Below are positions 25,567 through 51,775 of a DNA stretch of 64,000 nt, piece by piece; positions within the stretch are counted from its first letter, which is position 1; each line of letters begins with the position of its first letter. This DNA is from Streptomyces sp. BA2 (GTDB taxonomy: Bacteria > Actinomycetota > Actinomycetes > Streptomycetales > Streptomycetaceae). The notes beneath the pieces were generated by a model. The model searched no databases. It saw nothing but the letters and a program-made list of their open reading frames with translations, and was not told where the DNA came from. The stretch is from positions 7,489,001 through 7,553,000 of the forward strand of contig NZ_WSRO01000002.1 in assembly GCF_009769735.1 (NCBI RefSeq). Reading direction: 5' to 3'. The position numbers and the translations under genes were made by a program.

Positions 25567-26387
25567 ATGACAGGCACATCGTCGCTGGCCGACCGGATAT
25601 GGGCCCGGGGGTACACCGATCCGGCCTGGGCCCGACGCCACACGACCTCAGGGCGCGAACTCGTTCCGAGCCGCAGTGTCTGGCGAGGCTCCGCCGGCCC
25701 GTCCCCACTGCCCGCCTCGCCGGCTGGCGCCCTCGACGACCTGACCTTCACAGGACCACACGGTCAGTCCCTCACTCTCGCGGAGCTGCTCGCCCGGGCC
25801 GAGACCGACGCTCTGCTGGTCATGCACCGCGGACTCCTCGTGCACGAGGAGTACCTCCACGGGTACGAGCCCATGTCCCGCACTTCAACGCCTCGGCCGC
25901 CTCGGCCGCCAAGTCCTACCTCGGACTCGTCGCAGCGGCCCTCGCCCACGAAGGGCAGCTCGACCGCGGCGCCCAAGTCTCGAAATACATTCCCGAGCTC
26001 GCCGGAACCGCCTTCGGCGACGCCCAGGTCGACCACCTCCTCCACATGGGCACGCAGATGACCTACGCGGGCCGCCCGTACGACAAGGCACTCGAAGCCC
26101 AGCGCTACTTCGCCGTCCTCGCCCCCCAACTGCGCCCCTACGGCTACACCGGGCCGGACACGATCCGCGAACACCTCGGCACCGCCCGGGCGACCGCCGA
26201 GCCGGGTACCGCATTCCGCTACGAGAACGGCAACGTCGAAGCCCTCGCCGAGGTCCTGCGGCGTGTCACCGGCACCACCACCTCCGCCCTGTAGTCCGAG
26301 ATGATCTGGTCCCGGATCGGCGCGGAGGAGGACGCGTACTACCTCCTCGACTCGGAAGGCTCCGAGGCCGCCTGCGGCGGCTTCAGA
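25567..26387 (+). pseudogene. serine hydrolase (beta-lactamase / NylB-like), broken
   Basis: The first frame encodes the N-terminal region to LLVMHRGLLVHEEYLHGYEP. Near 25875-25885 the sense moves to another frame, which gives the catalytic stretch SAASAAKSYLGLVAAALAHE with an SxxK motif. It continues with VDHLLHMGTQMTYAGRPYD and AFRYENGNVEALAEVL, then a TAG at 26292-26294. The same frame continues past that stop as SEMIWSRIGAEEDAYYLLDS, the normal next segment of this family, to about 26385. There, unrelated sequence begins. So it has one frameshift, one nonsense codon and a 3' truncation. Confidence 0.65.
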
Positions 26388-48226: not shown

Positions 48227-49367
48227 CTGTCAGGTAATCACACGACATCGCCCGTTCAAGTTCCGTAGTGGGTGTCTGAGAAGCCCCGTTCAGGGCAGGG
48301 TTCTCGCCGCTGTGCGGTGCAGTAGCAGCATGACCGTCGCCATCGGCGGGACGGACACGGCAGGCAACGTTCAAGTGCTGTGCCGTGGACGCCACCAGCT
48401 CAAGACGAGCACGGAGTTCGTGGCCGCTCGTTCTGTGTAAAACCACTGTCTTGCCTGGGCCTTGACCGGTTCGACTGGGGCGAGGGCGAGGGCGAGGGCG
48501 GGGTGCGGGTGCGTCTTCGACGGGAAGACGCACGGCGAACGAATCAAATTCAGCCTCGCTTCGGATGAGGCGAGGCAAGCCTTTGACCTGGTGCGATATC
48601 GTTGTCGCCCTCCTTGGAGGGCCAGGCGGAAAGGTGTCTGCCGTCACGGTCCGTGCGCAGTTCGTAAAATATGGGGCCCGTGGCCGATATTTTTGCCATG
48701 AGGATTTGAACTGATCACATGCCCCTGCTTCGCTTTACGCATGACGCAGATTCCGGCAGTATCAGCCGCTTTGTCGTTCGTCGCGTTGGTTAGTGCGCTT
48801 GCCCTCTTGGCAACAACACACCACGATCCGGAGCTCAGGGGGCGCGCGCTTCGCGTTCTGGAAGTGCTGTTTTCGTTTGGCCGCGAACGCTAGGGCGTGA
48901 ACCGCTCTGTATGCATGCGGAAGGGGCGCGGAGTAGGCACGCACACTGCCCCGAGTGGCCCCGACTTACCATCGGGGCCACTATCGATCTTGCAGAAAGT
49001 GGAAGCAGCCCACAACCCCCACCCCTTGCGCCGGCAGCCCGCACCTGAAGGACGTGACCCTGGAACTGCTGCAGGACCTGGTCGCCGACCATCCCGCATC
49101 CAGTGCACGACGCCGCGGGTTCTTCAAGATGTCCCGGGTCCTGGCGGCCAACGGCTGCATTTCCGCGCCGCTGGTCAACGGGCACCAGCAGCGCGGAACG
49201 CGTCGGAGACCGTGGCCTCGGTCCCGCCAGAGCGGTTGGAGATGGTCCTGCGCTGGCGGAAGTTCAGCACCAACGAGCCCGGCACCGTCCGCACCAAGTG
49301 CCCCTTGCTGCTGGGCGCTGGGCAGCTGAGCGGCACCCAGAGGCGACGAGCCCGCAAGCCTGGACGC
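48227..49367. other. gene-poor stretch with simple repeats
   Basis: GAGGGC-type hexamers repeat at about 48480-48502. A perfect 10-bp hairpin (GTGCGTCTTC / GAAGACGCAC, loop GACGG) lies at 48511-48535. Two plus-strand scraps at about 49050-49180 and 49200-49320 (LKDVTLELLQDLVADHPASS and PPERLEMVLRWRKFSTNEPG) have coding-like bias. They sit in different frames and could not be named. Nothing else is supported. Confidence 0.3.
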
Positions 49368-49660
49368 GCGGGGTGTTGTGGCTCCCGGCCAGCCCGCCCA
49401 TCGGCACCGGACTCGGTGGCTACGAATCGCTCACCGTACGAATGCACCGCGGCACCACTCTGCTGCTGTACACCGACGGCCTGGTAGAACGACGCGGCAC
49501 AGACATCGACATCTCGGTGCAGGCGCGTGAGATGGTGAGCCTGCCAGCGGACTGCCCTCTCGACGACATGCTCGACACGTTCCTGGCCCTGCTGGCGAAC
49601 GGTGCGTACGAGGACGCCGTCGCGATCCTCGCCGCTCGCCAGCACGACGGAAATGAATGA
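49368..49660 (+). pseudogene. C-terminal fragment of a SpoIIE/PP2C-type phosphatase
   Basis: The frame reads PPIGTGLGGYESLTVRMHRG, TTLLLYTDGLVERRGTDID and ends FLALLANGAYEDAVAILAAR. The segment LLLYTDGLVE, with its metal Asp, is diagnostic of SpoIIE-type phosphatases, which in Streptomyces regulate anti-sigma-factor networks. The sensor domains and the first half of the catalytic domain are absent; the frame upstream has no family resemblance. Confidence 0.65.
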
Positions 49661-49719
49661 CCCTCCTCGCTCAGCCTTCGATGAGAAACGCTCATCCTTC
49701 GCTGCGACAGAGCAGGAGC

Positions 49720-49862
49720 TGTCCCGTCTCAAGTGATCTGGTCCGAAGCCGCGGCTGTGACCTGGGGCGACCAGAACGGTTGAGACACCTGGGTAGCCGC
49801 AAATCTCAGTTGATCTGGACCCTGGCGCATGAATACTGGCTGTCGTCTCAGTTGATCTGGTC
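49720..49862 (+). repeat. left iterated terminal repeats of the cassette (3 copies)
   Basis: Copies are GTCTCAAGTGATCTGGTCC (from 49726), TCTCAGTTGATCTGGACC (from 49804) and GTCTCAGTTGATCTGGTC (from 49845). A diverged copy in opposite orientation, CCAGAACGGTTGAGACA, lies at 49771-49787. The spacing of about 40-80 bp resembles transposase-binding arrays. Confidence 0.75.
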
Positions 49863-49912
49863 TGCTTCCGGCGTTTCGAACTGGACTAGTGGAAGGGCCT
49901 GCGAGGATGACC

Positions 49913-50803
49913 ATGCACGATGACCAAGTGGACGTGACCACCGAAACCGTTGCGACTCTGATCGAGGAACAGTTCCCTCAGTGGAGCGGCAAGGCGATCC
50001 AACTCCTGCCGTCGACCGGGACGGTCAACGCTATCTTCCGCATCGGGAACGACCTCTCGGCGCGTTTCCCACTGCGTTTGGCCGATGCTGCCGAGGCTCT
50101 GGCGGTGCTGGAACAGGAAGCCCAGGCGAGCGCGGAGCTGGCGCAGGTGTCTCGATTCCCCGCCCCGGAACCCGTCGCCTTGGGAAAGCCTGGAGCGGGT
50201 TACCCCATGCCATGGTCGGTCCAGACATGGCTACCGGGGACGGTCGCCTTTGATGCCGACCCGAGCGGGTCGGATGCTTTTGCCGAGGACCTTGCGGCCT
50301 TCATCGCAGCCCTGCGGGAGGCCGAGACGCGGGGGCGGCTCTTCAGCGGCGAGGGTCGTGGCGGCGTTCTCGCTCACCACGACGATTGGATGGCGAAGTG
50401 CTTCGAGGAGAGCAAGGGGCTGCTCGACGTGCCCCGGTTGCGCCAAGTGTGGGGCCTCTTTCGGGAGTTGCCACGCACGGGTGTCGACGTGATGAGCCAT
50501 GGTGACTTGATTCCCGGCAATGTACTGGTTACTGGGGGCCGGCTCAGCGGCGTACTCGACGCCGGCGGCTTCGGCCCGGCCGACCCTGCGCTGGATCTGG
50601 TCAGTGCCTGGCACCTGTTGCAGCCAGGCCCGCGGGAAGTGCTTCGGCGGATACTGGTCTGTGACGAACTGGAGTGGGAGCGCGGCAAGGCATGGGCGTT
50701 CCAACAGGCGATGGGCGTTGTCTGGTACTACGTCGAAAGTAATCCGACGATGAGCAGAATGGGGCGCCGGACACTCGACCGCATTCTGGAGTCGATGGAG
50801 TGA
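49913..50803 (+). CDS. aminoglycoside-phosphotransferase-family kinase, cassette passenger
   Basis: A 296-residue APH-fold kinase. The N-lobe strand TGTVNAIFRIGNDLSARFPL holds the nucleotide-contacting region. MSHGDLIPGNVLV near residue 193 is the catalytic loop (HGDxxxxN). GVLDAGGFGPADPALDL stands for the metal-binding DFG-like loop, with Asp retained but the usual Trp replaced by Ala-Gly. ATG 49913 has GAGG six bases upstream; ATG 49907 and GTG 49889 are alternatives. The nearest left repeat ends about 50 bp upstream, so promoter and passenger travel together. Antibiotic, hydroxyurea or small-metabolite substrates are possible; none is shown by the sequence. Confidence 0.85.
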   Translation: MHDDQVDVTTETVATLIEEQFPQWSGKAIQLLPSTGTVNAIFRIGNDLSARFPLRLADAAEALAVLEQEAQASAELAQVSRFPAPEPVALGKPGAGYPMPWSVQTWLPGTVAFDADPSGSDAFAEDLAAFIAALREAETRGRLFSGEGRGGVLAHHDDWMAKCFEESKGLLDVPRLRQVWGLFRELPRTGVDVMSHGDLIPGNVLVTGGRLSGVLDAGGFGPADPALDLVSAWHLLQPGPREVLRRILVCDELEWERGKAWAFQQAMGVVWYYVESNPTMSRMGRRTLDRILESME

Positions 50804-50870
50804 TGTCGCCCCGGTTATAGGCCGTGATAAAGAAGATCGCTTGCCGCCCCCACCGACAACCGCACGAACG

Positions 50871-50947
50871 GGAACAGATCATCTGAGACGACGAGTGAAT
50901 CGGGCCAGATCATTTGAGACAGGGATCAGATCGACTGAGACGGAACA
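50871..50947 (-). repeat. right iterated terminal repeats of the cassette (3 copies, inverted)
   Basis: Read on the plus strand the copies are CAGATCATCTGAGACG (from 50874), CCAGATCATTTGAGACAG (from 50905) and CAGATCGACTGAGACGG (from 50927). They are the reverse complements of the left-end motif and stand about 25-30 bp apart, closer than on the left. Confidence 0.75.
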
Positions 50948-51049
50948 GGAGCCTCATGCACCGGGCCCTTCAGGGTGCCTGTCCGTTGTCAGCGAAGTTA
51001 GTCGCTGTGTCAGTGAACGCAGTCGCCCTCACGTGTCCGGGTCGCCAGC

Positions 51050-51775
51050 TCACGCGTCACGAAGAGGTTCGGGCCGAATGAAGTCCTCCGGATCTTGGCT
51101 AATCCGCATCTCGCTTGTCCGTCTAGAGGGCAACTCCACCCCGACCAGAGGCGTGTCGTCCGGATGATGGAAGACCGCGGATCGCGCACTGAACGCGAAC
51201 CGCTGATTGAAGTCCTGGGCTAGTGCCGCAGTCGGCGCCCCCGTGCGGTCCGGAGCTCCGGGAGCCGACATCAGCAGCACCACCTGCCTGGCGAGGGGAA
51301 TCGCGACCCCAGCGGCCGTTGCCAGGCCCACGCCTATCCAGGGCGGTCTCCGAGGGTCACGTATTAGGGTCACGGGGTGGTCCGACGTGATCAACCTTTT
51401 GCGCTTGAATCGGTACAAAACCCAACCGCGCTGCATCAGGACATCAGCTGCCGCCGGGATGCCGCTAGCCATGTTCGCCAGGTGGTGTACGACTGGGGGC
51501 TTCACGGTGTAGCTGGAGAAGTCCGTCTTCTCGGCCCACTTCCGCTCGACCTCTTCGTCACAGACCGGTCCGCCAGACTCCGATTCGAGCCGTTCGCGCA
51601 ACCCCTGCTTTCCCTCGATCGCCAACGTGATCTTCGTCAGGTGGTCGAACACCTCGTTGGCAGCCCGCCTCCTGGCCGGGACCCGCAAAAACTGTGCAGC
51701 GACCCAGTCCGTCATCGTCTTTCGTTCGGCTGCTGGTAGCGGCCAGCAGTCTTCATCGACCACCATTCGGAGCAC
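51050..51775 (-). pseudogene. DUF4238-like protein, 5'-truncated
   Basis: The minus-strand frame has the DUF4238-type layout: VLRMVVDEDCWPLPAAERKT, LTKITLAIEGKQGL, then KRKRLITSDHPVTLIRDP and IPLARQVVLLMSAPG. The family normally has about 90 further N-terminal residues, starting with a His-Val-Pro motif. Here the frame is open only to about 51835 (FTDPLEGEAAHV) and then ends. The remaining part shows no internal damage. Family function is unknown. Confidence 0.6.

Follow-up and report, generated by a model that had tools for sequence, protein, structure and literature searches.

The window analysed here, a stretch of 64,000 nucleotides from Streptomyces sp. BA2, contains a cassette-like element of 1228 bp (49720-50947) with TG...CA tips and iterated ends. 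It is bounded by two copies of a 5-bp target duplication, GGAGC, at 49715-49719 and 50948-50952, and its tips read TGTCCCGTCTCA and TGTTCCGTCTCA. A repeat search and a motif scan located GTCTCANNTGATCTG-like copies at 49726-49740, 49803-49817, and 49845-49859 on the plus strand and at 50927-50941, 50906-50920, and 50875-50889 on the minus strand. The far (TniQ/cargo-side) end of about 143 bp (49720-49862, plus strand) carries GTCTCANNTGATCTG four times, at end positions 7, 67(-), 84, and 126, the copy at 67 being inverted and the others direct; its extent follows from the repeat positions and from 77.6% identity over 143 bp to the far end of L153, a full element described below. The near (TnsA-side) end of about 77 bp (50871-50947, minus strand) has three copies at end positions 7, 28, and 59. 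When the whole window was searched with the core TCTCANNTGATCTG, allowing up to two mismatches, eight matches were obtained against a shuffle mean of 2.94, and one of 100 shuffles reached eight. These matches were the six end copies (0-1 mismatch), the inverted copy, and an unrelated site at 26295. In the 10-Mb host genome, a longer tip pattern with at most one mismatch occurred only at the two ends of the element, and a shorter core with one mismatch gave 12 further, scattered matches. The initial annotation had described the segment between the GGAGC copies, its tips, and three repeats per end, all of which we confirm; its list lacked the inverted copy, a weaker one at 49772-49786.

The single gene of the element (49907-50803, plus strand; analysed from 49910) encodes an APH-like phosphotransferase (PF01636, 1.2e-29), annotated in plasmid copies of the cassette as an aminoglycoside phosphotransferase family protein. 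Queries for TnsA, TnsB, TnsC, and TniQ had no match inside the element. The earlier description of a bounded, passenger-bearing element with a target duplication and no transposase gene, which would need a transposase in trans, is upheld. A role in resistance, which the initial annotation had named as one possibility, is conjectural: the protein scored far under all curated NCBIfam cut-offs for resistance families, aminoglycoside and macrolide phosphotransferases included (best, 32.7 bits against 205), and the nearest solved chain was only weakly similar (3.2e-5). The dN/dS ratio was 0.14-0.28 between the window gene and 23 homologues, with a median of 0.25 over 276 pairs, indicating that the gene is under purifying selection.

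The same cassette is present elsewhere, at several unrelated sites and each time with its own duplication. A blastn search of 72,556 plasmid records returned four with a match over at least 80% of the query, all from Streptomyces and 89.5-92.8% identical. Three of them have both ends and their own 5-bp duplication (L019, GGAGC; L020, ACGTC; L021, GCACT), and the fourth (L022) is truncated at the right end. Copies with duplications were also found at genome loci L161 (GCGAA), L168 (CCAGC), and L058 (GAGGG), the last with an APH gene that looks frameshifted. The copies in the window, L019, L021, and L168 are each 1228 bp long and align without gaps, and the alignments of L020, L022, L058, and L161 contain 5-66 gapped columns. 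Identity among the cassette copies was 89.5-94.5%. Comparison of up to 400 bp of flanking sequence gave no match longer than 25 bp; the sole matches, of 24-25 bp, were between the right flanks of the window and L168, between those of L161 and L168, and between the left flank of L161 and its own right flank.

The machinery that would move the cassette was sought in the host. A TnsB query had no match in the host genome, in a run that included no positive control. The TniB family gave one match (33.1 bits, in an 870-codon frame), as it did in most of the 39 genomes searched, and we take it for a housekeeping, generic AAA-like protein. TnsB relatives are present in 441 plasmid records, 119 of them from Streptomyces. 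The initial annotation had also proposed comparison with an empty site, which yielded none: the joined flanks of the window, searched against 392 genomes, had no junction-spanning match among the matches listed, where the best foreign match to the left flank was 85% over positions 8-310 (G062) and the best to the right flank 77% over 448-700 (G061). Empty sites of the four plasmid copies were likewise not seen among the matches listed; in one record, similarity to the left flank of L021 ends at the base preceding the element. Movement in trans is thus an inference, since neither a TnsB match nor a convincing TniB turned up in the host and an empty site was likewise missing. These host results, the many APH loci that lack one or both ends, and a level of identity among copies that shows no very recent move would also suit a dead relic, which moved long ago with an autonomous element and whose copies now spread by plasmid transfer and recombination. 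We regard that as improbable, since at least seven short-form copies lie in unrelated flanks with their own 5-bp duplications, which plasmid spread alone does not produce.

The ends are not confined to the kinase gene. The left end (163 bp) had a match at E <= 0.001 in 64 of 392 Streptomyces genomes. We scored far- and near-type ends by their architecture at a threshold of 33 (the maximum in three window shuffles and the reversed window was 25) and joined them into pairs up to 14 kb apart, leaving the duplication out of the criteria. The fetched loci contained 26 such pairs, 19 of which have an exact 5-bp duplication, expected by chance in about 1 in 1024 per pair; seven have none. Loci fetched afterwards provided seven pairs, six with a duplication; the seventh, L233, agrees in length and flanks with L077, counted before. 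No TnsA/B/C/TniQ match was found in 23 of the 26 pairs; of the other three, L126 and L153 have the full set and L087 matches TnsB.

Cargo was surveyed in 24 proteins picked by codon composition from the cassettes, with a few loci beyond the 26 pairs (L027, L099, L173) added; five of the 24 had no Pfam match. The cargo includes the pairs TetR plus NmrA-like, epoxide hydrolase plus WYL regulator, and alpha/beta hydrolase plus HTH, and, in an element without a duplication, short-chain dehydrogenase plus LysR. It further includes a methyltransferase, a mycothiol-S-transferase-like protein, GNAT, asparagine synthase, and a histidine kinase, as well as DUF6193 and a serine recombinase, both in elements without a duplication. 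Other passengers between ends of the same kind, as the initial annotation had predicted, do therefore occur. The 6.8-kb cassette at L083 (1023-7792) holds a histidine kinase gene and, by inspection, a response-regulator gene, and is possibly a mobile two-component system. An exact scan of genome contigs from 84,980 species for TGTCCCGTCTCANNTGATCTG recovered 30 stretches, 29 of them from Actinomycetota by title. The remaining one, L158, is from an Acetatifactor MAG; no paired end was found in the available stretch. A sister subtype with the tip TGTCCCGTCTCATTAGATCTT was seen at L098, L099, and L100. The cassette at L099 measures 1370 bp, has a GCATC duplication, and carries a gene with an MDMPI_N domain; L100 combines TnsABC-TniQ with a cargo gene of the transglutaminase-like kind.

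It could be argued that the kinase gene is simply regulated through these repeats, as ordinary DNA of that function, and that the duplication arose by coincidence, and the initial annotation had itself named repeats conserved around the kinase without duplications as evidence against a mobile element. This picture does apply to decayed copies. Among 25 APH loci, five had both ends over the threshold, six the far end only, one the near end only, and 13 neither. For five of these 13, the sequence reached only about 0.6 kb downstream; L161 and L058 fell just below the threshold despite having duplications. In some tip-less copies, inner far-end repeats are still found upstream of APH. As a general explanation it is refuted by the same ends around unrelated genes, and the frequency of duplications given above speaks against coincidence; we give it practically no weight.

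A full element with matching ends was identified at L153, a metagenome contig (Streptosporangiaceae MAG), where it spans 6602 bp between CCTGG duplications. Its near-end repeats start at 7, 28, and 59, exactly as in the window, and its far-end repeats at 7, 67(-), 83, and 125, compared with 7, 67(-), 84, and 126. L153 encodes TnsA (NF033179, 277.8 bits against a cut-off of 110), TnsB (rve, 31 bits against 32.6; Mu-transpos_C, 22.1 against 21.7), TniB/TnsC (56.6 bits against 22.4; 2.9e-15), and a TniQ-like protein with a weak match (25.1 bits against a gathering value of 27; 3e-5). The Pfam scores for TnsA, rve, and TniQ are slightly under gathering. The nearest solved relative of the TnsB is that of Tn6677 (1.8e-8). 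TnsB proteins 82%, 81%, and 92% identical to that of L153 occur at L126, L201, and L202, adjoined by ends of the same kind; both ends are present at these loci, and the flanks do not match as duplications.

Elements at L100, L111, L119/L120, L133, L140, and L142 were also considered as the closest autonomous partner and rejected, their genes being related but their end motifs different. The one at L111 (8617-15462) is a Tn7-like element with a GNAT gene beside the far end and two kinds of repeat in its TnsA-side end. L119 and L120 are two copies, in one genome (G311), of a 4997-bp Tn7-like element with TnsA, TnsB, TnsC, and TniQ matches; their differing 5-bp duplications (AGCGT, CTTCC) are a sign of recent activity in the clade.

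TG...CA tips and iterated ends fit the IS21 family in general, and the initial annotation had read the ends in this way. On that reading, IS21 ends surround a passenger that IstA/IstB move in trans. IstB-family matches, many of them weak, do exist in all 38 genomes searched, and the host has three PF01695 matches, the best of 170.7 bits at G000:C2:245508. In L153, the protein at the TniQ position has an IS21-like stretch, its only NCBIfam match being an IS21 transposase model (56 bits; cut-off, 160), and the TnsB matched IS481 and IS21 NCBIfam models below cut-off. Against this, where matching ends occur together with transposition genes, these genes are TnsA/TnsB/TniB/TniQ-like; no tip lies near any of the IstB-like genes of the host, where the initial annotation had proposed to look for an IS21 element with the same end motif; and none of 32 delimited elements gave a match to an IstB query. 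The cassette resembles IS21 elements in its tips, iterated ends, and short duplication and differs in its partner genes, which are TnsABC-TniQ-like and not istA/istB. Because L153, with the same architecture, encodes TnsA, TnsB, TniB/TnsC, and a weak TniQ match, IS21 is not supported, and we consider an IS21-type cassette very improbable. The initial interpretation is in sum partly supported.

Instead, the window cassette very probably derives from an actinobacterial Tn7-like transposon and is non-autonomous, as judged from L153-type repeat arrays at both ends, the 5-bp duplication, and a partner with TnsA, TnsB, TnsC/TniB, and TniQ, the TniQ and rve scores of that partner being marginal. As no core genes lie inside, it is classed as a derivative and not as a full member. 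With the transposons recognised by NF033179 (TnsA_like_Actin) it shares the end architecture, the TnsA-TnsB-TniB-TniQ partner, and the 5-bp duplication; unlike them, it has none of the genes. Surveys based on core genes would for this reason not list it. PMC8649781, whose delimitation of elements starts from core genes, reports a TnsB clade dominated by Actinobacteria; none of the members that it names has been characterised experimentally. Actinobacterial Tn7-like transposons also include Tn7706 of Rhodococcus (PMC12915292).

Two kinds of known element come close, and the first is the mobile insertion cassette (MIC). The window element has a passenger gene and no transposase, ends related to those of an autonomous element, and a duplication, and movement in trans is proposed for it, all as in a MIC. 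Known MICs are built on insertion-sequence or Tn3-type ends, whereas the window cassette is built on Tn7-like ends. The second is the defective Tn402/tni transposon of class 1 integrons, in which TniABQ-type ends and 5-bp duplications surround cargo and the tni genes are partly or wholly lost. The cassette is similar in its TniABQ-type ends, its duplications around cargo, and its loss of genes; unlike Tn402 class 1 integrons, it belongs to another clade and has no integron, and the cassettes here mostly hold one or two genes. MICs are named in PMC4444841, PMC5444012, and PMC6542083. A MIC or defective Tn402-type transposon is a known kind of element. A literature search by title and the start of the abstract, with most subscription journals out of reach, found, among the papers listed, no transposase-less cassettes of this clade and no named element of this form, in agreement with the initial annotation.

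The origin of the cassettes was approached by blastn against L153. Similarity was mostly limited to about 77 bp of the TnsA-side end and about 143 bp of the other end; for the window copy at 1e-5, the far end aligned and the near end did not, whereas the near end of sister copies did. L208 has fragments of TnsA, TnsB, TnsC, and TniQ, followed by an APH gene (88%) and the far end, in the same order and orientation as in the window cassette and with a tip-to-gene distance of 191 bp compared with 190 bp. L069 has APH plus TnsB and TnsA fragments. L023 retains the near-end cargo gene of L153 (177 of 205 residues identical), and in L083, L070, L112, and L182 the alignment to L153 continues past the far end toward the interior and reaches the 3' part of the tniQ-like frame. 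Since such deletion intermediates exist, internal deletion of a full element is the best-supported origin; for other cassettes, capture of foreign cargo is possible.

The cassette in the window sits between end-like sequences of two other elements. One, which we call X (49665-49714, minus strand), has two spaced CGAA repeats, abuts the left GGAGC, and reads leftwards. A partial SpoIIE-type phosphatase frame (49103-49660, plus strand; profile positions 100-190 of 192) stops just left of X. The other, Y (50980-51024, plus strand), resembles the end of another Tn7-like element, with two GTCAGNGAANNNAGTC repeats and its tip 32 bp beyond the near end. No convincing second end of X or of Y was found in the window; the DUF4238 gene at 51050-51775 (minus strand) could be cargo of Y. 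Removal of the cassette and one copy of GGAGC leaves 32 bp from X to Y, as if, to judge from this spacing, one site had been used twice.

This arrangement recurs. Read outward from their near ends, many loci show another TGTCC-type tip at a distance of about 32-33 bp. A tip motif with at least 12 of 15 positions was present in 23 of 47 near flanks, 11 of these 23 at an offset of 32-33, compared with 4 of 53 far flanks and an average of 0.05 in shuffled near flanks. A unit TGNCANCGAA (at least 7 of 8 positions), a repeat belonging to another Tn7-like end, was found starting at 37-41 in 14 of 47 near and 1 of 53 far flanks (Fisher, 7e-5), an interval chosen after viewing the same flanks on which it was counted; in 12 matches the unit lies 39-40 bp outside the TnsA-side end. 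Applied unchanged to 34 later loci (10 near and 14 far flanks), a small sample, the rule gave 5 of 10 versus 0 of 14. In the pooled near flanks, 38 of 57 (two thirds) have no such unit. When the neighbours of 23 near ends were traced, four closed as elements with 5-bp duplications and TGNCANCGAA-type ends (L070, 2503 bp; L105, 1328 bp; L177, 740 bp; L024, 509 bp), apparently a second family of cassettes; several of the loci end soon after.

In Tn7, the TnsA-side end faces the TnsD site. The cassettes are like Tn7 in their 5-bp duplication and their short, asymmetric ends (about 143 and 77 bp in common here), and like attTn7 in the fixed distance of a proposed recognition sequence, the neighbouring tip being at +30 from the duplication centre. 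For Tn7 itself, 166 bp of the left end and 90 bp of the right suffice, and the TnsD site occupies +23 to +58, counted from the duplication centre (PMC2918618). In place of the glmS gene recognised in attTn7, the recognition sequence proposed here would be the end of another transposon, and we propose Y as that sequence in the window. The resemblance of the neighbour spacing to the TnsD site of Tn7 suggests that sibling Tn7-like ends can act as attachment sites. Transposon ends are insertion targets also for IS4321 and IS5075, two members of the IS110 group that use the ends of Tn21-type transposons; those elements have another transposase chemistry and insert inside the terminal repeat, whereas the cassettes would insert about 32 bp outside.

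Alternatively, the neighbouring end at about 32 bp may mark a shared hot spot or a reused region and not the recognition of an end. These arms and plasmids commonly contain nested arrays of mobile DNA, and in two far flanks another end directly abuts the duplication. The sharp offset of tips and units, the restriction to near and not far flanks, the recurrence of the pattern in later loci, and spacers that look unrelated by eye all argue against this explanation, which we hold to be unlikely, though far less so than the relic or the IS21-type cassette.

Taken together, the following course may be proposed on the basis of the sequence comparisons. A Tn7-like element with an APH gene beside its far end would have lost tnsABC-tniQ through internal deletion. 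TnsA and TnsB supplied in trans by a related element, for which a plasmid is a plausible source, would bind the repeats of the cassette, pair its ends of about 77 and 143 bp, and insert it with a 5-bp stagger. The site would often be picked by a TniQ/TnsD-like selector that recognises the end repeats of another Tn7-like element, which would place the TnsA-side end about 32 bp from the tip of the neighbouring element.

On balance, we lean toward a large hidden class of transposase-less Tn7-like cassettes in Actinobacteria, most of them with one or two cargo genes, moved in trans and arrayed by targeting of sibling ends at a fixed distance and in one orientation. If this is true, cassettes would stack into arrays because the selector recognises sibling Tn7-like terminal repeats; transposon ends would serve as attachment sites, and integron-like arrays would be built by Tn7-type transposition. 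Surveys based on transposase genes would miss such cassettes, although the far-end type is as widespread among Streptomyces genomes as noted above. The uncharacterised clade of PMC8649781, in so far as its named members represent it, would become directly testable with short common ends, matching transposition genes, and a candidate target rule. The ends could yield a compact integration tool for Streptomyces, an industrially important genus. The cassettes would also account for the movement of single genes and of regulator-enzyme pairs between the chromosomes and plasmids of Streptomyces.
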